64,000 nucleotides of DNA from contig KK106982.1 of the NCBI GenBank assembly GCA_000611775.1, forward strand, positions 2,847,992-2,911,991, written 5' to 3'. The notes below the pieces were generated by a model. The model did not search any database. It was not told the DNA's origin and saw only the letters and a program-made list of their open reading frames with translations. The position numbers were made by a program, and so were the translations under genes. Shown in pieces: positions 34,189 through 57,050 of this stretch. How positions within the stretch are numbered: the first letter of the stretch is position 1; each line of letters opens with the position of its first letter. The DNA is from Umbilicaria muhlenbergii (taxonomy: Eukaryota; Ascomycota; Lecanoromycetes; Umbilicariales; Umbilicariaceae).

Positions 34189-34404
34189 GTGTGGCTTTAC
34201 GAGGAAGCCCCAAGGAGCTTAGCGTACCGGCGGTCTTGATGCGGCAATGTGTCATGCTCGCGACTTCCGTCCGGCTTTTGCACCAGGCTAAAATTAGAGC
34301 CGGCCGTTTGTGCGGATCCTGATGGCGGAGAGGTGGAGGAAGAGGAAGGACAGCATCGCCACGACCATGAGCCCGGCGGCCTTATCACCATAGCCGTCAC
34401 CGAC

Positions 34405-37400
34405 ATGGCCTACGACGCGATCGCTCAGGTCGAGCCAGCCGCCTGTTCTGATTCGCTCACGTCCTATCTCTCTGCGTCAACTCATGCGCAGATCCGCAAT
34501 CTCGCGTTCCCTACAGATTGTAAGCACTCAGGAGGGTCCCCAGCCGCTCCTGAAGCATCTGTCCCCGATAACGATATTGGAGCATCAATGGGCTCTATGA
34601 TGAGGTCAATGATGTCGGCTGCTTCGAGCTATGAGATGATTGAGACCGATGAACAAGATGGCGCCGACGCCAGAAGCACGGGTCGTGGACGTGGTTCACA
34701 TGGTTCGAGCATCGACGAGCACCGTCACCGCAGCAGCTCGAGTGAAAGAGGTCCTTTCGACCAACTCCAGCTGCCAAAGCGTGGGTCTCAACCGACAAGT
34801 ATAAAGACAGTCTCCAGAGAAGGGTCCATTCCCATGCGACATCCGACCCCGGACTTGCAGTCGCTGCAAGGGGCTTACATAGGGAATGTGGAACGTCTGG
34901 AACGCAGTGCAGAGCGGCTGAGCATGTCTTCAGATATTGGGGAGGAGTTACGTAAGATGAGGCTGGAGCAAAAGCGGTCGGACAGTCGAAGGAACAGTCG
35001 GAGGTCTTCGATGCTTGATACGCACGTGGAAGATGAAGAGTTGCCGCCCTTGAGACGTGACTTTACATCAAGTTCAAACGCGTCAAATTCGATTCTAAGC
35101 GTGAACAATGCTGCCAGATCAGGGGGTTTCTCTCCAGGCGGATTCGCCAACTCTCCACGTGTCTCATTACGTTCAGCATCCTGGTCGCATAATTCCGTTC
35201 GAGCTCGATCTGGGTCGCAGAAATCACGATTGACACAGATGCCAGAGCCTGAACAAGAAGGCAGGCCACTTGATTCTCCACTATCACCACGTTCTATACC
35301 AATCATTAGCTCTCCGCAACCCCCGATGCAGGTTCTACGGGTTATAAATCATGATGAACCTTTACCGGAGTTGCCCTCGTCCGATCAGGACTACGACAGC
35401 ACCTTACAACCGCCAGATTCCGCGGACCTTGGGCTGCTGGAACCCGCAAGCGAAACCCTGGAGAGATCCATGACATCTTCTTCTATCAATATCGACCCTT
35501 ATCGTAAAGCCAGCAATCTCTTCGCAGACTTCGATGGCGTGCACATTACAACGCCTCCACCGCCAAATCAGGACGCACCCGCAAACCATACACGTCAATC
35601 ATCCTTAGGACATCTTCCCATCATCCCAAGACTACAACCCCATGCAGCTCCTCCCGGGGAGAACATGGTCTTCTATCCCGCGCCGGTACCCATGACCCTT
35701 AACCTACCACAGAAACTTTCCAAACTTCCACCAGCCGGCCATAGGGACAAGCGGCGTTCGCAAGTACTAAGCAATGTATCTTCTGATGCGCGACAATCAA
35801 CCGCTTGGTTACCGGAGGTGCTGGAGAATACGGACGAGGGCACTCAGAATGACCATAATAGCACCTCGCCAAAAGGCAATGTTGAAAACCGAAAGAGCAT
35901 ACCACCGCAGCTTCGAGCGAGTATTTTCTTCGAGCATCCGGCCCTTCCGCAGACGATTCAGGTGAAGGAAAACTCGGCAGTCGCCACATTGGACAGCATC
36001 CTGGAGGCATCTGCATACGCGCCGATCAGCGCTTTCATAGATCATCCAATTGTAGGTTCTATTGGCGCAGAGATCTATAGTAGTTCCATTGCAAGACCTA
36101 GCGCTAGGAACTTGTTAGGGGACAGGATGGAACACAGAAAGAATAGAAGCTCTATGAATCTTCCCAAAACCCGTCGAGCTAGCTCATATATACCAACGGA
36201 TATCGGGAGGCCTGATAGCAGTTTGCTCACTGACATAGCTAATCTTCATCCAGACATGCTAGATGAAGCAGAGGCGGCGGCTGCCAGTGGTGAACACACT
36301 CCCCTACGGCAGGGAACCCCAGGGCGTGATGGCCCCGAAGAAGACGGAGAGTTCTACGATGCTCACGAAGCATTCGAGGGCGAAGGGGAGTATGGTCACC
36401 ATCCAGAGGAGCCCGAATACAACGGTCCACCCACTACATTACTCGCTGAGCTCCAGCTGCGAAAATTGCAGCAAAAGCAGCGGAACCGAACAGCTGCGAC
36501 AGCCTTCCCCAATGGCATGCATTCGACGCTTTTAGAACTGGACGCCGTTGCGCAGGTGCAAAAGCAGACGCGGAGACAGAAACACATAACCCTTGCCTGG
36601 GAGGATCCTAGTACCGCTAATGCCCGTGCCGAGAACGAAGATGACGAGGATATACCTCTAGGCATATTGTTCCCCGGACGAAAGGCTGCTACGAACGAGA
36701 ATACAGGTCGCTCGCAGCCTGTGGGATTGATACAAAGACGCGACGTTGACGACAATGAGCCTCTGAGTCAGCGGAGAGCGAGGTTGAGAGGCGACGGGCC
36801 GATTCCACAACGGGGTATCAGTCCCGACAAGCGAGCAAGTACGTATACACTTGATATACCAGATCTTCCTGCGACGGATAGAAAGGCGGAGCCCAGCGCA
36901 GAGGAAGGAGAGACCCTCGCGCAACGCATCAAGAGATTGAAGGGCCAAGCGGATACACAAGCCAGACCTATCAGCGGCGACTTTGCCAACGAAGTATTGG
37001 GTCAATTCGGTGGACTTCCAGAGACAGGCAACAAAGCCACATCGAAGAACTCTCCTGGCACACCCGCAGATCCGGAGGAAGAAACACTAGGCCAACGGCG
37101 CAAACGGCTGCAGGCAGAGCAGAAGGCCCACAGCAGACAGGCCAGCGGCGGCAGTGCGCCGAATCCTCCCTCTGCTAGACCAATAGTGTTGCAACGGCGA
37201 AGTACGACGGATCTGTTACAATCACAGCCTACATTGAGCCACCCAGCCACGCCGTATGGGACGGTCCCACCAGCTACGACGTACACTCAATTCAACGCTT
37301 TCGGAGGCCTAGTCCCATCATTTCCACAGCCGACCATCAACCCTGCCGCTCACCTCCCCATGCTGCCGCTACAGTTCAGCAACCCCACTACCCACACCCA

Positions 37401-37542
37401 ATTCCCCACCGGTTTCGGAGGCATAGAGATCCCCCCGTTTCCCACCGCCAATATGCCAATGGGGATGTTCGCGCCGGAGCTGCCGCTGGATATGAAACAG
37501 CGGGACATGATCGATCGGTGGAGACAGAGCGTGATGCATTAA
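34405..37542 (+). CDS. large conserved fungal protein of unknown function, mostly disordered
   Basis: 1045 residues from the first in-frame ATG (34405); the frame is also open upstream to 34249 without an ATG. The protein is Ser/Pro/Arg-rich with blocks that look conserved: MRHPTPDLQSLQGAYIGNVE, ERSAERLSMSSDIGEELRKM, a central TTLLAELQLRKLQQKQRNRT, DEDIPLGILFPGRK, then three similar short blocks NEPLSQRRARLRG, GETLAQRIKRLKG and EETLGQRRKRLQA. It ends with DMKQRDMIDRWRQSVMH. I recall this terminal DRWRQSV block in uncharacterised filamentous-ascomycete proteins. The three (E/L)xxRRxRL-type blocks look like an internal short linear-motif repeat. No membrane segment or catalytic motif. Function unknown. 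Confidence 0.8.
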   Translation: MAYDAIAQVEPAACSDSLTSYLSASTHAQIRNLAFPTDCKHSGGSPAAPEASVPDNDIGASMGSMMRSMMSAASSYEMIETDEQDGADARSTGRGRGSHGSSIDEHRHRSSSSERGPFDQLQLPKRGSQPTSIKTVSREGSIPMRHPTPDLQSLQGAYIGNVERLERSAERLSMSSDIGEELRKMRLEQKRSDSRRNSRRSSMLDTHVEDEELPPLRRDFTSSSNASNSILSVNNAARSGGFSPGGFANSPRVSLRSASWSHNSVRARSGSQKSRLTQMPEPEQEGRPLDSPLSPRSIPIISSPQPPMQVLRVINHDEPLPELPSSDQDYDSTLQPPDSADLGLLEPASETLERSMTSSSINIDPYRKASNLFADFDGVHITTPPPPNQDAPANHTRQSSLGHLPIIPRLQPHAAPPGENMVFYPAPVPMTLNLPQKLSKLPPAGHRDKRRSQVLSNVSSDARQSTAWLPEVLENTDEGTQNDHNSTSPKGNVENRKSIPPQLRASIFFEHPALPQTIQVKENSAVATLDSILEASAYAPISAFIDHPIVGSIGAEIYSSSIARPSARNLLGDRMEHRKNRSSMNLPKTRRASSYIPTDIGRPDSSLLTDIANLHPDMLDEAEAAAASGEHTPLRQGTPGRDGPEEDGEFYDAHEAFEGEGEYGHHPEEPEYNGPPTTLLAELQLRKLQQKQRNRTAATAFPNGMHSTLLELDAVAQVQKQTRRQKHITLAWEDPSTANARAENEDDEDIPLGILFPGRKAATNENTGRSQPVGLIQRRDVDDNEPLSQRRARLRGDGPIPQRGISPDKRASTYTLDIPDLPATDRKAEPSAEEGETLAQRIKRLKGQADTQARPISGDFANEVLGQFGGLPETGNKATSKNSPGTPADPEEETLGQRRKRLQAEQKAHSRQASGGSAPNPPSARPIVLQRRSTTDLLQSQPTLSHPATPYGTVPPATTYTQFNAFGGLVPSFPQPTINPAAHLPMLPLQFSNPTTHTQFPTGFGGIEIPPFPTANMPMGMFAPELPLDMKQRDMIDRWRQSVMH

Positions 37543-38472
37543 CGTATCGCTGAGGCAGGGGTCAACCACGTACGGTGTGTCTTTCAAGGGGAGGCGCAGG
37601 TCTACGATGTAACTATAGTTTCACATTCATATCATACAGCGACGCGAGCACGATAGATGTGCTGCAGATAGATACCCTTGGCGTCACGAAGCGAAACAAA
37701 AACGACAGGTTGGAGGGGGGAGGGGTCATGGTAGACGCGGATGTAATGCTAGATAACAAATACAACATAATTCAGCCACCACTCGGGAAGTGGAGAGTAC
37801 GGAGTTGTGACATGCTATCTACTGTGTGTAGATCGGGTAGAAACCGAGAGAGCGATGGTATTGGAGAAATGGAGGAACCCTTGTCACTAACCCTTTTCCG
37901 CTCTTCCTCTCATCCACATCAGAAGCCGCCGTCGTAACCCCTTCCTTCGCCCCCGATTCACAGCTTACAGAACATGCTCCCACCCCAACATCAGCCGACC
38001 ACCCATCAACCCCTGCAATAAGAAGCAAACACCCGAACATATGCAGTCAACGATCTCCACATTACATATCCCAAGACCAGGCCATCAATGCAAATGTAGG
38101 AGGATGAATAAAGTGGAAAAACTACCATGATATTGCATTTCATCTATAGCCGCACCAGAGAACTCCGAAGTGAAAATCCGCACATCGCTATGCTATGCAT
38201 ATAGCCAACAACCCACCCCCATGCACCGAGATCCCGCCTCGCCCCCCCTCCGGCCCCGCCCCGCCCCTACTGTTCGCCAACCACGCCGCCGCACGCTCAT
38301 ACAGATGCTCCCACAACCATGCAAACAAATGAGTAGAGTAGAAGAAGTCGCTGCCGCCCACCCCGCATCGCCAATCCAGCTCTGTTGCCAAACCCCCTCA
38401 CCAAGTTCCAAGACCCGCCCCCGCACGTCATCATGCAACGGGAGCGTATCCCCATCGACCCCATGACAGCCC
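37543..38472. other. intergenic stretch between convergent genes
   Basis: Contains the 3' ends of the 1045-residue protein gene and BLM10. The long BLM10 frame reads through here without a stop only because its last intron is not removed; that tail is not coding. Confidence 0.6.
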
Positions 38473-41400
38473 CTACGCGAAATAACTCTTCCAAAGCACC
38501 CCATCCAGATCCTCCACCTGTTCCGTCGAAAAAGCCTAAACGCAGTAACGCACCAATCAGCCCCACTGCCAATCATCCGACCAGACCAAACCCCCTTCCC
38601 CCTTGCCGGCAGAGGAGAGTGAAGAAAGATCGGAAACAAAGAAAAAGCACATACCTTCAAATCCATAAACCAAGTATCCTGCCTCGTCTTCTTAAACTCG
38701 CTCAGGATACTCTTCACGCTCTTCCCCACCATCCCCGGATCCGCATTCGCCTTATTCGCCAACGTGGCCAAAACCCCCGGGATCCACCCCGGCGGCGGAC
38801 TCGTGTACGGGAACGCCTGCACCAGCGCCCCGAGCCCCAACACCGCCGCGTGCCGCGTGAGGACGAGTTTCGCGTGCTCCGGCGTCGGCGTACTCGTCCC
38901 CGTGCTGGGCGCCGAGAGGCCGATGCGGTGCCGGGTCGGCTTCTTGGGCAAGGGGTGATCGACCAGCAGTTTCGTGAACTGCGAATTCAGGGTTTGAACG
39001 ACCGAGTCGCGCAACGCGACGGGGGAGCAGCGGATCATGCCGGAAAGCGTCGAGGAAGCGCCGAGGCGGACTTCGAGCTGGGTGTCCTCGAGCATGGCGG
39101 CCACGCAGTCGAAGAGCGCCTGTTGCTGCTGGCGGGAGATGAGGAAGAGGCGGCGGAAGTAGATGACTTGCATGTTGATGAGGACGCGGAGGCGCTGGTG
39201 CCAGAGCGGGGAGGTTTGGCCGATGCGGATAAGGGAGTTGATGAGGTCGACGTCTTCGCCGGCGCGGTGGGGGATGTTGGGTAGGTGGCGGAAGACGTGG
39301 TAGGCGAGGCCTTGGAGCTCTTGGTCTTCTTTGATGTCCATCATGTGCAGGAGCTGTTCCATGAAGACGCTGGGGAAGAAGGGGAGGAGTTGGATGCATT
39401 CGTGCGAGGACAGAGTTGAGTCGAGCCATAACAGTACGGTCTTGCTGCCGGATGTGTATGGTGAAGGGGCTTGATCGCCAGGCGTACGCTCCTGCCTCCA
39501 CTTCTCCAGTCGTTCGAAAACCTCGTGGATGGTCTTGGAGAACTCTTCGGTGGGTTGGTAAGGTCGAGTACCCACAGATGATGCTGCCTTTTGAGTCTCG
39601 ATAAGAGTATCAATGTCTTTGTAAGATTCATGATAGCGTGTACGATATATTGTCGCTATCGTTAGACCCATAGCCTCCCGTACACCCTTGTAGGGGTGAT
39701 CAAGATGCGCCAGAAAATCCTGCAAGACCGGTTTTTCAAGCTGGAAGTGCCAGCCTGCGTCGGTTATACACTGTTGCAGCAGCTGTATTTTAGAGCTTTC
39801 TTTGAACGCGGCGTTAGAGGACATGTCCAATCTAAAGCTGGCGAGCCAATCCACGATCGGCCACGAGCGTCGTGGATCCTTGCCTTGCAGGACGAGGTGC
39901 AAGCAAGTTGTCCAGTATCCCGAGTTCTCCGGAGTCAACCCATCAGAGAAGATCCTTTGGATAATGGGAAAACAGTATTCCCAGACCATCGTTCTGATTT
40001 CCACTCTATGATTAATAGTCGAAGATAACAGCGCACCAAGGATCTCGGCCGTTGCTCGATGCTGATGCTTGTCGGTGCCATCGCCGTAGACACCTGTGAC
40101 TTCCTGCTTAATATCCTCAAAAGTCACGGCAGTGAAACCCTGGTAGATGAGCTCAAATGCATAGATAAGCATCATCGCACTAGCCATGCGGAAGCGATCA
40201 GCGCTGGCATCTCGAGGCTCTTGCTTGAGGTAGCCGAAGAATGTGGAAAACCACTTTCGATCGAGGAGTCGGCCGATTTGAGCAAGAACCGTCTTTTCTA
40301 CATCATCGTACTCAACATCAACTCTCGGATTCGACTTGTATGCCGGCATTGTCTTCTCCCACACGAGCCAGCCAGGATGATCATGATCAACGTAGAATTC
40401 GGCCTCGGGTTGGGCAAACCTAGCAAGGTATTCGGCCGTATATTGGGGATCGTCAGGACGTGTGGTAACTTGAATCTTGGCCGGGACATGCTGCTTTTCA
40501 AGAAGGTAATTCTCATACTTGTGTTCACATACCGCTCGAACGTCAATGAGTGAAAACAAAGCAACGAATGCTCCGGAGTACAAGCCTCTTAATCCAGGAT
40601 GAGAATCGACGGCGCCGGTGGTAACGAGATCAACCATGCTCTTCGAAGCTATACTATCAAACCTCAGGCCCAGGGTGATCACAATAGCAGCTGTGCGGCT
40701 CGCCTTCTTCCAGTGAGATTTCTTGGCCATATCGACAAGCTCGTCAGAAAGTGCAGCCTTCTTGGCCTCCACTTTGGCGCGCTTTTTCTGGATCATGTTC
40801 CTCTTCTTGTCAATCTTTGCCTGGACGTCATCGGGAGGAGCTATGACCTGAACTAGGTCCTTGTTCAAGATGACCACTCTGTCAAGCGCTCGTCCATAGT
40901 CCATGATCTGGAATGTCGCACCAGAACATAGTTTCTGAATTGAGGGTTTGTCAGTAGTGCTGGCTTCTATGTAGGCCTTGATCAACGCAGGCGCGTATCT
41001 CCAGTCTCGTCCTATTGTCTTCGCCAAGCTACCGAAGAGTAAGGAGTACATGGCGCCTTTGATCCGAGGGTAGTCATTGTCTTTAACTCCGCGCTCGAGA
41101 GCGTGAAGCAACGGAGGTATAACCAGAGGCCGCGCTCCAACAATGGCCTTGATTGCGGATTCTCCTGCGCTTTGAGCGTTACGGCGGACTTCCGTGTACA
41201 TTGACACACCCGACTGCGCCAGATCAAGAAGCAAAATCTCGTCCAGATCCGACTTAGGTCTTGGAGACGCATTTTGTCGTAGCCTAGTCAGATGGTACAC
41301 ATTTGCCCTCCGCAAGAGCAGTGGCCTTGGATACTCCTTCCGTAATCCGCTGACTTTATATGGATGAATATCAGCGCAGAAGAGCCGTTGAACTCTATCC

Positions 41401-44400
41401 AAGACGTGAGCAGACCGCTCTATTCCGACATCGATGAACCACGATCGGTAAGCAGTGTATAATGGGCTGAAACACGCAACGTCGTCCTCTTGTTTTTCCA
41501 CGAGGAACTGATGGACCTCGTGTAACACTTTGCCAGTCCTCTCTCTCAAGGCGTGAACTTCTTTGTAATCAGCATCACCTTCCTTCAACAAGTAGCCGAC
41601 TGGGTAGTGGAAAGTAGGCTTGACCTCATCGTCATCCAACCCAACTAAAGCGTCGGTATCATCTTCCGCTTGGTCCTCAGGAGCATGGCCATTGGCTTCA
41701 ACCATCTCAACGTCTCGGCTAGGTAGAGAGTTGGTGTCATGCGCGCTCCTTGATGCAGCCTTCGCATCGAAGAGCACAGATACACCGGACAGCAGAAGAC
41801 GAAGAAGAACGAGATTCCTCGATACCTCATCGGACCACTCTTTCCCGGTACCATCGCGCTTGATACTTGAGCTTCCATTGGTTAGTGAGGTCAAGTGCTG
41901 TAAGGCACTCTCTGCTTGCGACTTGAACAGCTCCACGGCGAAAGCGATTTCTTCTTTATTAGGAACATGCCACTTAATATTCAGCTCCTGCACGTTTGGT
42001 ATCCTGCCCCAGTCCTCGGGACCAAGACCTCTCGCCAAAACATCGGCTTCATAAATTGCGTAGTCAACAGGGTAAGTGACTGTCAAATTAAGGAGCAAAT
42101 GATGGATGTAATTCGAAATGTGTACGGTTGGTATACCCTTACACTTTTTCTGCATATACACGGCAATACCAAAGAGATCTTGCTTATGCTTGAGCACGGC
42201 ATCACCAACATGGACCACACACATGCTAAGCATGCTGACACTCCACACAAGCCCACGATCTCTCGGCAAGACGTCAGTACCAGTGTTACGTGTTGACGCG
42301 GCTCCGTTTTCATCAATCTCAGTACGTATAGATTGAATTAGCATCGGCACAAGGCGCTTCAACGCTTTCTCCGGGTTGACCTTGCAAAGCGCATTGCATA
42401 TGAAAGCCATTGCATCGCGCGCCTGATGGATGACATGATTTCCGACGAAGTCGGCGATCTTATTGAGTGCTAGATCATACAGCTCAGGTGACAGAGTAGC
42501 AAGGAGAGGCGTAAAAGTTGCTGGCAATGTATTCACGACGTTCTCTTCGGGCGAGCCAGATCGTACCCTTGCTGCATCAGGCAGATTCTCTAGCAAAGTA
42601 AAGACTCTACCTAGGAAAGAGCTGAGAAATTCGGTGAAACCAGCAGTCGAAGATCGAAGAATCATTTCCTCGTCTTCGTCGCTAAGCTTGTCTTGATAGT
42701 CAATCTCGACGTTGACGCCTTCCTGCTCCATTCTGCCTACTTCTGAGGTGATCCACTCAACTGCTAGCATGCTGCCGCTGATGTCATCTCTACCTTTCGT
42801 CAAATCGTGAAAGGGTATGCTGTAGCAAACCGACTGAATGTACGACAGAGTGTAGAGTGTCTTTTCAAGATCATTTGCATCGATACCCGGAAGTGCAAGA
42901 CCAAGCATAGTCGTAACATGACACCTAAAGCCCTTTGTCCGTACCATAATCCGTGACAGAACTTGGAGCGACCGTAAAGAAGACATTGTTCGATGTACTT
43001 CAACTAGACCTTGCATAGATGGGTATATCCTCTGAAGCGCTCCGGGTAGAATCAAGTTGGGTTCCAGATACGCCAGGCTCTGCAGCGTCGATAAAGAGAA
43101 GTTCATTGCAGTACCGCTCTTCGCGTAGATGCCCATGAAGATCACATCCCTCAGGCATAGCACAAAGCGTCGCTTCAACTCGTCGTTAAGCTTGCGCTCT
43201 TCCGGAATATCCATCTCACCGCTCCGCTCACGGTTCCAACGCATCACAAAAAAGTCCGCAAGATAGTAGACTAATTGGGATAGTGTCTTCGTCCATCCTC
43301 CGGAGTTCGAGGGGTGGAAGAAAGTCTCCACAGCTTGGATAAGACCTTCAAGATTAGCCAGAATCGAGTCTGGCTTATCCAAGCACGCTGGAGATAAAGA
43401 CATCACAATCCACCGCGCGATATGGTGCGCAATGGGATGCTTCTTCGGGTCCCGATCCAACATCATTCCCAGTCCTGCACTCAGATCGACAGTAACACTG
43501 TAAGGCGAAGTCGCTTGTCCGACCGGTATTTCGAGCAGGCGGAGAATAGACGTGAAGATAAGAGTGGATTGTTCCTGGGTGAAGATGCCATACTCGGAGA
43601 ATTCGATCTGCTTGGCCGGTAACGAGTCTCGGGCTAGTCTCGAGAAAATATCCAGAAAGATCGTATCAAACACTTTCGAGCGGTTGATCAGGGACCATAG
43701 ATGGAAGAAAGTGGGTAGGTAATGCTGAGGCATGAGGTTTGGCTCATCGGCTGATGCAGGCGAGGTCGGCAGCAGCAGGTTTAACAACCCAGCGACAACG
43801 AAGGCACCTTCAGGAAATGATGCACTGTAGTAAGGCAGGAACTCCTTCAACATCACGGTTATGTCTTTAGGATCGAAGTACAATTGTGCAAATGTACATA
43901 GCTTAGTTAAAGTTCGAAAGTTGCGCTTGACGTTTGTTGTGTTCACCATGCCAGACTCTGATGGAAGTACAAAGACCTTCAGTTCTCGGTACAGAGGTCT
44001 CCAGTCAAGTGTAAGGTCTTTTATGGGTCGTAGGTAATGCTTGCGCCTGGATATGTCAGTTTGAGAACCTCAACACCATCTACGTTTCACCCGAGCTCAC
44101 TTTGTCAACACCATGAACATGCTTGAAAACCTCTCCGCCACACTAAGGTCGATCCCTGGTGCCAGCGCAAGTTCATAATAAAGTCTAACGAGCTTGATTC
44201 TCTGTTCCTTTGTCGGATCGAACTTGAGTTGTAGCCAGTTCCTTAATTCTCGTGTCCAGTGAACAGCTCCCGGCGAAAAGTCCCCCGATTCCACCGCCAC
44301 GTAGAGGTACTTCAGAATCTCGTTGAAGTTCTTCTGCCGTTCTGCCTCATCCTCAACTTCATATGGGAGATAGCGGAAATATGGGTAGGTCCGCGGCCTA

Positions 44401-52420: not shown

Positions 52421-55400
52421 ATGCTGGTGACAGAGCACGCTCAGGATCCTTCGGCGCGGAAGTTTATGGCCTCGTCGTCGATGCACGCGCGTGCACATAT
52501 GAATGCCATACCGACCTCTTATGCGCCTAATCTCAGCTCTACCCAGGTCAACAAATATCCCACAGGACCCTCAAAACCCAACATGAACGGTGCGCAGCAA
52601 GGGTGGTCTCCTCCCAGCAGCAATGCGGCGCCACAGATAGACGGCAACAACATAATGAACAGAAAGGCGGACGAGAGTAGCTCGTTGTATCAGACTTGTT
52701 TAGGTTTAAGGAAGCGTCTGTCTGAGGTTCCTGGATTTGAGCAGCATATAATAGAGATGGAAGATGAGGAGGCAGAGGCCGATGATTCAACGGATCCTGT
52801 TACCTCAATGTGGAATTGCTTACGGCGAGGCTACCCTCTGATGACCATCTATAATGCCTTGCAGCCGCGGGTGCCACTGGAAGTAGATCCATCCAAAGTC
52901 GCGGAACCAAAGATTGGAAAGGCAGCAACTTTCAAATTCCTGCAGGCTTGCATGACCGATTTGAGGTTTCCGGCGAATGAGTGTTTCCTAATCACGGACT
53001 TGTACGGGGGAGACACCACCGGGTTCGTCAAGGTGGGTACTTCCTCGTTTTGAGACGTGGATCTTCGCTTGTGGCTATCAAATCCCTAGAGTATGTTAGC
53101 TTACGCAACGGTACAGGTGACCAAGGTGGTCAATCAAGTGCTCGACCTTCTATATCAAAGAGGCATACTACTCCGTACAGAACCAGGACCGGGAAATGGC
53201 AGGGATAACGAAGAACCGCGAACACGTACACATAGACAACATGTGGTGGAAGAGCTGGTTAAGAGTGAGCGCACTTACGTGCAGCACCTGGAGACACTTC
53301 AGCACTTCAAAAATCAGATAGAGCAGACTGGAGCTATTCCCGGTGATGCGGTACATGACATCTTTTTGAACCTGAATGCGCTCCTTGACTTTCAACGGCG
53401 GTTCCTTATCCGCATTGAGCAACAGAACACATTACCGGAATCGCAACAGAATTGGGGACGGTTATTCATACAGTATAAGGATTCATTCCGTGTATATGAA
53501 CCTTTCATCGCCAACCAAAGCCGGTGCAATGCTACTGTGGAGAAAGAGTGGGACAAACTCAAAGCAGCTGAGATGTCGCTATCGCCCGAGGTTCGGGAAA
53601 TGGTTTCGAGCAGCAACATTCTGAATGCGTTTCTTCTTAAGCCCTTCCAACGCTTGTCCAAGTATCCAATGTTGCTTAAGGTACGTGTCCCGGCCGCGCA
53701 CCAACTGCTAGGCTATACTGACATTCACTAGGACCTGCGCAAGAAAGGGGATTTAGACGAGGAGCGACGGAGGGATCTCTTCGAGGGCGAGGCCGCCGCT
53801 AGTTCAGTGCTGATCAGAGCCAACGACGCTGTCGGCAAAGAGCAGCGGCAACAGGCTGTTGGAGAATTACAGAGCCGAGTCGAAGACTGGAAAGGCCACA
53901 AAATTGAGCATTTTGGGGAGCTTCTGCTCTACGGGGATTTCACTGTGTTGAAAGGGGATGGTGTCAGGGAGGTTGAACGAGAGGTTCGTATCATTTTCGA
54001 TGCCCTTCATCCAAAGTGTCGCGCTGTTGCCCGTCGGGCATTGGCCCATGTTCCCGCCCTTGTGGCCCAGTATCACTCGACTGGAGTCCCGAATCCTGTG
54101 CACCAGCAGCAGCCAATTGAAAGGCGCAAACTCCCGTTTGGCCTGGATGTCGTTCCAGAGGAGCACTCCGATGAGGGGGACCCAACCGTCTCGCTGGCAG
54201 GAGCAAGGGACGGTAAGATGGGCGGATATCCTCACGCTATTCTCAAATTCCATAAGGGGAACCAGGACCCAGGAGAGGAGAAGCTAAGAGGCCTCTATAA
54301 GAGTCCCATGAAGAGCTTTTTTATTAAATCAAAAACAAGGCCCTCATCGAAGTCAGAGTCCCCCCAAACCCCTGATAATCCACAATCCCATGAAAAGCAG
54401 ATGGCCCCCAATAAGCTAAGTGCTTCCCAAAGCGGTTCCCTGGAGGACTTGATCAGCAAACCTAAAGCAGCCTTTTCACTAGAGATGGGGTTCCCCAAAG
54501 GGCCTGACGCTCTACAAACCCACGGCGGCAAGAAGGCCGCGGAGGAGCCAAGGCTTCATCACAAAGGTTCCTTGACGAGCTTGTTCAGTAAGTCAAAGGC
54601 AAACCTCTCACTAGAGACAGAGTCTCCGAAAGGGCCTGATACTCCACAATCCCATAATGAGGAAAAGGCCCAAGTAGAGCTTAGAGGTTCCCACAAGGTT
54701 CCTGTGAAGAGCTTATTCACCAAGACAAGAGCAATCCCGTCACCCAAGACGGATTCCCCCAGAAGACCTAACACTCCACAATTCCATGACAAGGAGGAGG
54801 CAACGCAAAAGTCAAGAGGTCCCATGAAGAGCTTCCTCGCCAGATTGGGTGCAACCCCGTCACCCAAGCTGAAAGCCCCTAACACGCCAGGTACTACCCA
54901 TTCCGGCTTGGAGATATCCAATGAGTCTCAAATAACACTTCAACGCTTTGGTGAAGGCTCTGGAAGTGGCGCCGGTTTCACACCGCCCACTCCTAGCCGG
55001 AAGAGCAGATCTGATGGACCTGGAGTTCTTGCCAAGTTTGGCCATAAGTTCAGACGCAAGACCAGAGTTCCGCAGATCAGGTCCAAAGACAAAGTGTTTG
55101 AGAAGCTCTGTACCCAGGTACTCATGGCGGCGGAGCTCAAGTACTATTTCGCTTTCAATGGGCCTTTGTGCGACCGGACGACTTTTCTGAACTTTGAGCG
55201 GCCTGGAGTTCCGGGAGTGTCTACATTCCATAAGCCCTGGCTACAAAAGCAACACAAAGGAGACGAAGAAGCTAACGGAAAGGAGCTTATGGCTCCCGTG
55301 TCTATGCAGTATAAAGTGTACCTCTTCGAACGTATCCTTCTCTGCTGCAAAGAGATCAACCCAAACAAGCAGAAAAACAAAATGCTGGGTAACAACAAGT

Positions 55401-57050
55401 CGATCCTCGACAAGAAAGGCAAACCACGTCTGCAATTGAAAGGTCGGATCTTCATGCAGAATGTTACGGATGTGATGTCAATTGGCAAGGCCGGTAAGTG
55501 TCATTTGCACCTTTCACTCCGTAACGGGGACATGACCTCTACTGATGCAGTGGGTTTATGCAGGATCTTACTCGATCCAGATCTTTTGGAGGGGCGACCC
55601 CGGAGTAGAAAACTTTGTTGTCAAGTTCTCCAATGAAGAGATGATGAACAAATGGCGCAGCCAAGTGGAGGTGCAGAAGAAAGTACTGAGTGACTCGGCG
55701 CGAAGTTCTGGCCACACTGGCACCTCCGAGACCGAGTTTACGTACCTAAGAGGTCAAGGTGCTATTCTCCAGAATCCTTACCAACAAGAGGAAGATGCCG
55801 ATGATGATTATGAAGAAGCCGGTGCCCAGGCGGCCGCAACAATGGGGGCTCCGCCAGAATTCGTCATGAGTCGTAATGCTTCCAGCACAAGCCTGCGTTC
55901 CAGGTCAACCACCGGTGGCAGCGGTCCGCCAACATCTCAACATCAAGGCAGGGTGCCCCCACCAAGGTTTCCTATTCTAGAGAATGGCCATGGGCCTTCT
56001 CTTACATTACATACCAATCTCCCTCCTTCAATGTCACCTGCAGAACTAGCAGCTGGGAGTTCTTATTTCTCCCCGACTATGGAATCGCCTGTTTCCACAC
56101 GCTCGAGCTCCCAGGCCAGCATGTACCCTTTCCCTCGTCAAGGGACACCCGGCAACGGGTGGATGAGTGAAGAGCACAAACATAACACTGCTCCAGCTGC
56201 TGTTCGAGCTCCCTCCCGCGATGGACAGGCGTCTCCCAACTCTTACACCATCAATGGCCGCACCGTTCAAAGGCCATCCCTACCAGCAATTGCATCTCAT
56301 ACTTCACAAAGCGCACAGCAGCTCACTATGGCGCAAAATCGAATGCGCTCTGCGAGTAGCCCTGACATTCAACAAAATGTACCAGGAACTCGACGCTATG
56401 TCAACGGTCAGATCCAGTCCACAAATGAAACCGTCCCAGTACCCCCGATTCCGCCACACATGGCTCAAATGCGAGCACCACTGAACAGGAGTCAAAGCAA
56501 CTCACCAACAAATGCTCAGCTTCCCTTTCGGAGCGCAACGCAATCTCCCAATCTGCAACGCGACGGGCCACGATACGTAGGGCACAATCTTCACGATGGA
56601 CCGCCACAACCACACGCAACCCGCTACGAATCCCGTCCATATCTGCACACCACGCAAACCACCCCTGCTCCGTTATTCTCACCAGATCACCGCCTTATGT
56701 CACCTCCACTGCCCTCAGCCACTCAGAGCGACGAGATTCCCTACCCTTCGCAGCTCAAAGTCAAAATATGGTTCAGTCCGCATCCAAGTCATGTCACCAT
56801 CGTTGTTCCCATCATCATAAAGCATCGCTCCCTGATCGACCGGATCGATTCAAAAATGGAGAAGATCTCTCACGCGTCCATCTCCAAAGGCACCGCTCGC
56901 TTGCGCTACAAAGACGCCGACGGCGACGAGGTCCTGATCGGTTCCGAAGAGGACGTCCAACTCGCCATCGAGGATTGGGGTTCCGCTCACGAAGAAGAAC
57001 TCCGCGCAGGCAACATTGCCGACTTCGAGCTCGTGTGGCAGGAAACCTAA
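52421..57050 (+). CDS. CDC24: Cdc42 guanine nucleotide exchange factor Cdc24 with a large PH-domain insertion
   Basis: CDS join(52421..53032, 53117..53680, 53732..55493, 55564..57050), 1474 residues as read. It activates Cdc42 at growth sites. Order: calponin-homology-like region (about 70-195), RhoGEF DH domain (about 241-430; VEELVKSERTYVQHLETLQH, ILNAFLLKPFQRLSKYPMLL), PH domain, a Ser/Pro-rich linker, and a C-terminal PB1 domain (about 1380-1474; LKVKIWF, RLRYKDADGDEVLIGSEEDV) that would bind the Bem1 scaffold. The PH domain starts at about 442 (GHKIEHFGELLLYGDFTVLK), breaks after GVREVERE at residue 476, and resumes at 919 with YKVYLFERILLCCKEINPNK. The 442 residues between are absent from standard Cdc24 (about 900-1050 residues). 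Introns have GTGGGT, GTACGT and GTAAGT donors and all keep frame. The start is uncertain; in-frame ATGs also lie at 52466, 52481 and 52499. Confidence 0.93.
53984..55309 (+). other. 1,326-nt in-frame segment splitting the Cdc24 PH domain (insertion or exitron)
   Basis: The segment starts GTTCGT directly after the GAG codon of VERE and ends TCTATGCAG directly before the TAT codon of YKVYLFE. It is exactly 442 codons long, has no stop in this frame, and contains GCTAACGG (a good branch-site match) about 35 nt before its end. Removing it rebuilds an uninterrupted PH domain. Its first part reads RIIFDALHPKCRAVARRALA, its middle is a repeat array, and its end is rich in aromatic and charged residues; I recognise no domain. 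Confidence 0.75.
54298..54899 (+). repeat. five degenerate 40-44-residue coding repeats
   Basis: Five consecutive units of about 120-135 bp follow the pattern (G/P)S(M/L)xSL(F/I)xKxK, then SPK, xSPxxPxTPQxH and a charged tail. Examples are SPMKSFFIKSK, GSLTSLFSKSK and VPVKSLFTKTR. All lie within the PH-domain insertion of Cdc24. The DNA has diverged, so the duplication is not recent. Confidence 0.75.

Follow-up and report, generated by a model that had tools for sequence, protein, structure and literature searches.

Exitrons of the EIx3 class, studied in Arabidopsis and human, are stop-free segments with a length divisible by three that lie within one coding exon, have weak donors and carry no conserved domain of their own (Marquez et al. 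2015, PMC4484396). None of the papers retrieved with 'exitron' and 'fungi' had a title on fungal exitrons, in a search that had most subscription journals outside its scope and does not prove absence. In Trichophyton rubrum, the Cdc24 cDNA MW699015 lacks 402 bp of the third exon predicted in XP_003232406; the authors state that these 402 bp are also absent from other filamentous fungi, and assume a mispredicted splice site (PMC11215307). Botrytis Cdc24, the annotation of which was revised by cDNA sequencing, has 1042 aa, and its gene has introns of 47–253 bp (PMC4010548). A PH domain in two halves around an insert is known from PLC-gamma, where the second half starts at strand 4 (PMC9203054).

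We analysed a window of 64,000 nt (the whole stretch of DNA under study), which lies in contig 2 of the 34.8 Mb, seven-contig genome of Umbilicaria muhlenbergii. Its Cdc24 gene (Table 1) was identified by CDC24/calponin, RhoGEF, PH_10 and PB1 domains in this order, all four scoring above the curated cut-offs when exons were scanned separately. PF06395 matched only once genome-wide at E up to 1, and Cdc24 is thus a single-copy gene with no spare copy. Introns 1–3 were positioned from the reading frame and splice sites alone. Elsewhere in the window, positions 34240–37539 of the forward strand hold an open frame of 1100 codons that matches nothing in Pfam up to an E-value of 0.001, and positions 38196–44069 of the reverse strand a single 1958-codon open frame matching proteasome activator subunit 4 (PSME4) models.

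Table 1. Features of the Cdc24 gene and of the block in its third exon (window positions)
Feature	Position	Strand	Basis
Cdc24 gene, block inside exon 3	52421–57050	+	Pfam domains, frame, splice sites
Exon 1, CDC24 calponin domain PF06395 (105.3 bits)	52421–53032	+	Pfam scan
Intron 1, 84 nt, GTGGGT...CAG	53033–53116	+	Frame and splice sites
Exon 2, most of RhoGEF (DH), PF00621 (96.5 bits, profile 1–149 of 180)	53117–53680	+	Pfam scan
Intron 2, 51 nt, GTACGT...TAG	53681–53731	+	Frame and splice sites
Exon 3 before block, PH start (PH_10 profile 1–24, weak alone)	53732–53983	+	Profile match
Block, 442 stop-free codons with intron-like ends	53984–55309	+	Sequence and statistics
Candidate 5' splice site of block, GTTCGT	53984–53989	+	Sequence; weak genomic enrichment
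Five degenerate repeats, block residues 100–302	54281–54889	+	Delimited by eye on translation
Single repeats (44, 45, 44, 42 and 28 codons)	54281–54412, 54413–54547, 54548–54679, 54680–54805, 54806–54889	+	
Candidate branch motif CTAAC, A 34 nt before acceptor	55272–55276	+	Sequence
Candidate 3' splice site of block, CAG	55307–55309	+	Sequence
Exon 3 after block (PH_10 profile 24–81)	55310–55493	+	Pfam scan
Intron 3, 70 nt, GTAAGT...CAG	55494–55563	+	Frame and splice sites
Exon 4, PH end (profile 85–120), long tail, PB1 domain, stop	55564–57050	+	Pfam scan

The block comprises 1326 nt in phase 0 (GTTCGT...ATGCAG), with boundaries that fall between codons (GAG/GTT and CAG/TAT). Its GT start, AG end, CTAAC motif, length divisible by three, placement between codons and lack of stops had been listed in an earlier sequence-only reading and were all confirmed on the sequence. 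The joined sequence stays identical when the cut is moved by -1 or -2 nt, with GT...AG at shift 0 only. The block's own frame has 0 stops, compared with 13 and 29 in the other forward frames and 16, 9 and 24 in the reverse frames. Halves of one PH profile flank the block: the piece before it scores 12.4 bits, under the PH_10 cut-off of 27.5, whereas the piece after it reaches 62.7 bits and the first part of exon 4 scores 30.0 bits. Removal of the block gives a single PH_10 match over profile positions 1–120 of 121 (134.1–134.9 bits), which bears out the earlier claim that a continuous PH domain is restored. The exact GT-AG join had the best PH_10 score of eight joins tried (134.9 bits), closely followed by a join that removes four more upstream residues (134.3 bits) and then by the remaining six at 124.7–129.9 bits. 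The join at 134.3 bits uses a second in-frame GT at 53972, 12 nt 5' of the block, and also drops VERE. From the profile and the general PH fold, we place the block near the beginning of the PH domain, in the stretch between strands 1 and 2. Like the PLC-gamma domain, the PH domain of this Cdc24 is in two halves around an insert, but the break is near the domain start rather than before strand 4 (PMC9203054). The block resembles EIx3 exitrons in being stop-free, a multiple of three in length and contained in one coding-type exon, and in its weak donor, its lack of a conserved domain and ends that coincide with a domain interruption; it differs in that its splicing is a candidate (PMC4484396).

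We considered whether the block could be an ordinary long intron that is always removed, its open frame being an accident or a remnant. Its splice-like ends and branch motif, the complete joined PH domain and the T. rubrum cDNA without a stretch predicted as exon (PMC11215307) are in line with this. Order-2 Markov simulations of the block, however, contained a mean of 13.9 stops (minimum 3) and were stop-free in 0 of 4000 cases, and 2436 overlapping noncoding-like stretch-frames had a mean of 24.8 stops (minimum 1). Because of these stop statistics, a plain intron with a chance frame is unlikely. Copying of stop-free repeats inside the block lowers the improbability but by our estimate does not remove it. 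The length divisible by three and the exon-like codon score and composition also stand against an ordinary intron: the block has neither the stops nor the composition of unconstrained sequence. Of the two outcomes that the sequence-only reading had proposed, optional splicing and a fixed PH insertion, both survive this comparison.

With a codon score of +31 bits, the open frame of the block ranks above the other five frames. Per codon this corresponds to 0.070 bits; the 26 coding stretches have 0.095 ± 0.041 and the 2436 noncoding-like stretches -0.141 ± 0.138, as calibrated with rough, open-frame-based training sets from 20 regions of 10 kb and the window. The best noncoding stretch nevertheless exceeds the block (0.165 vs 0.070 bits per codon), and that some do so weakens the case for an element that is translated when kept. 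Over the final three sub-blocks, the scores for frame +2 with stops ignored are 7.7, 8.2 and 5.9, against 5.7, 5.1 and 6.8 for the open frame; the frame of these sub-blocks is not picked by codon usage alone. The A-over-T excess of the block (0.16) lies within the range of 0.10–0.24 spanned by the exon pieces; introns 1, 2 and 3 have values of -0.23, 0.0 and -0.17. Its G+C content is 0.525, that of the exon pieces 0.44–0.555 and that of the three introns 0.476, 0.568 and 0.486; Arabidopsis exitrons have been reported to have a G+C content below exons and above introns. The first 150 nt of the block (53984–54133, forward strand) are T-rich with an AT skew of -0.14, unlike the block overall, which cuts against its exon-like composition. 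Their translation appears by eye hydrophobic and perhaps helical, and this 5' part may have a separate origin. On statistical grounds the block as a whole has what defines an exitron in this respect, namely no in-frame stop and coding character when kept.

The ends of the block are rarely matched by chance. Codon-aligned ends were drawn at random from coding regions of the genome, with 40,000 trials for each setting. GT and AG co-occurred in 0.5% of draws at the exact position, 2.4% within ±2 nt, 14% within ±6 nt and 26% within ±9 nt. Inclusion of a CTRAY branch motif reduced these rates to 0.05%, 0.19%, 1.3% and 2.1%, respectively, and requiring CTAAC itself to 0.005% to 0.36%. The GT...branch...AG arrangement of a spliceosomal intron is thus present at the junction defined by homology, with a donor, GTTCGT, that deviates from GTRNGT at +3. 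The automatic intron sets (4 and 36 introns) were too poor for a donor profile and a donor-string count was used instead. GTTCGT was followed by a branch- and acceptor-like string in 5 of 67 occurrences in the 291 kb scanned, 2.56 times background, a noisy measure by which GTGGGT, the donor of intron 1, falls below background (0.31) and the unlikely donor GTTTTT reaches 2.64. Optional splicing is weakened by this off-consensus donor, the enrichment of which rests on five cases, and by two further AGs (55282 and 55285) between the branch motif and the CAG acceptor. It is also weakened by length, since the block is, as previously remarked, far longer than the other introns of the gene (84, 51 and 70 nt), and likewise than those of Botrytis Cdc24 (PMC4010548).

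The weak donor and the unusual length fit better with a fixed coding insertion, in which the block would be retained and translated in every case, giving Cdc24 of this lineage a large PH loop. Its intron-like ends would then be due to chance or be remnants of an intron turned exon. This explanation is nearly as plausible to us as the exitron-like reading, which we place narrowly ahead. It is in agreement with the signs of translation (no stops, codon score, composition), does not require splicing of a 1.3 kb intron from a weak donor, and has a precedent for a PH domain that tolerates a long insert in the split PH of PLC-gamma (PMC9203054). Against it, GT, CTAAC and AG at the junction are unlikely by chance unless the block descends from an intron.

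Scans of the protein encoded by the block found no known domain, with E-value limits of 10 for Pfam and of 1 for both NCBIfam and PDB sequences. The insert of the PLC-gamma PH domain consists of folded signalling domains, and the Cdc24 block has no known domain. The PH domain of Saccharomyces cerevisiae Cdc24 has a long low-complexity insert, as in the block, but that insert is much shorter and occupies another loop, further along the domain. The block translation carries a net charge of +25 and 13 SP/TP sites; we call it disorder-type on the basis of composition. Four copies of the degenerate repeats were also found by a search on DNA only, all in one codon phase. The pooled pN/pS of the repeats was 0.75 (10 pairs, protein-guided alignment), with pN in single pairs ranging from well below to above pS. 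In an ungapped DNA alignment of the four copies, codon positions 1, 2 and 3 had 40, 33 and 52 differences. Amino-acid identity was 0.43 in a shifted frame vs 0.39, and because identity is equally high when shifted, the codon-position differences are not used as evidence. Neither pN/pS nor the codon-position comparison revealed clear protein-level constraint on the repeats, which counts against an exitron that is translated when retained.

An origin of the block as a mobile or introner-like insertion, or as a piece of some other gene that ended up in Cdc24, would account for the sudden insertion of a sequence without known domain. Searches of the 34.8 Mb genome with the DNA, the whole protein, its last 143 and its first 100 residues yielded no further copies among the best candidates scored; the block returned only itself, rather than the many near-identical copies of an introner-like element. 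Between 53700 and 55600, two inverted pairs and two direct families of repeats (at least 14 nt) were detected, none at both block ends. In view of these results we consider such an origin highly improbable. An intein, as another type of in-frame insertion, was rejected as it had no Pfam match and the ends lack the residues expected of inteins. A second PH_10 locus (contig 2, 2015911–2016298) was considered as a block-free paralogue of Cdc24 but is part of a RING-like/PH/VWA gene at about 2015.2–2017.6 kb on the reverse strand, roughly 0.9 Mb from Cdc24. This gene, the only other PH_10 locus found, has matches to zf-RING_2 (25.7 bits, below cut-off), PH_10 and VWA, and its PH match runs through profile positions 2–84 without such a block. 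Its domain order resembles that of Far1/Ste5-type scaffolds. No Cdc24 was found in prokaryote contigs (111 pattern matches, none confirmed) or virus contigs (60, none confirmed); as these collections comprise prokaryotes and viruses, this says nothing on fungi.

A translated appearance and spliced-looking ends can be reconciled only if the block serves, or once served, as intron as well as exon. We tentatively favour the interpretation that it is an intron-derived coding segment that may be removed by the spliceosome at option, i.e. a candidate exitron-like element, as judged from the sequence. It combines 442 stop-free codons with exon-like codon score and A-over-T excess, and GT, CTAAC and CAG at the best-scoring PH junction. 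The predicted 1032 residues without the block are close to the 1042 aa of Botrytis Cdc24 (PMC4010548). The T. rubrum gene shares with it an extra stretch of a length divisible by three in the third exon that is kept by gene prediction and absent from the cDNA; it differs in that the stretch has 402 bp rather than 1326 and lies at the end of the predicted exon, and its authors hold splice-site misprediction responsible (PMC11215307). The likeness concerns exon number and length divisible by three. Together with the signals at the best PH junction, the T. rubrum case has strengthened the earlier exitron proposal, in which optional splicing stays a candidate. As it is the block-free form of Cdc24 that is conserved, the block looks like an intron becoming exon and not like an exon becoming spliceable.

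Under this exitron-like interpretation, an intron early in the PH domain would have lost its stops and grown partly via repeat expansion. Removal of the block would yield a Cdc24 of ordinary type, 1032 residues long and with its DH-PH unit intact, and retention a protein of 1474 residues with a basic loop bearing Ser/Thr-Pro motifs early in the PH domain. The kept loop would set the beginning of the PH domain apart from its remainder, and the domain could assemble from its two parts, as that of PLC-gamma can (PMC9203054). For yeast Cdc24, cooperative binding of anionic lipids is reported, via a PH domain with a very low phosphoinositide affinity (PMC11576722). The basic loop could alter the avidity of Cdc24 for acidic membranes, and could offer phosphorylation sites. 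Splicing, translation of both forms, the intron origin and the influence of the loop on membrane seating and phosphorylation are what we infer from these features. Improbable, in our view, is a wider reading in which an exitron at the first PH loop would be conserved and regulated in Cdc24 of filamentous ascomycetes and the T. rubrum 402 bp would be the same element; optional splicing would then toggle between a compact GEF and a GEF whose membrane domain contains a basic, phosphorylatable loop.

According to the literature, most of the fungi tested need Cdc24 as an essential protein, with N. crassa given as an exception (PMC4010548). Cdc24 also determines the sites of hyphal growth. If splicing controls whether the PH domain of Cdc24 is whole or interrupted, this would constitute a polarity switch at the RNA level and, if true, a 442-codon case of an intron in transition to coding sequence.
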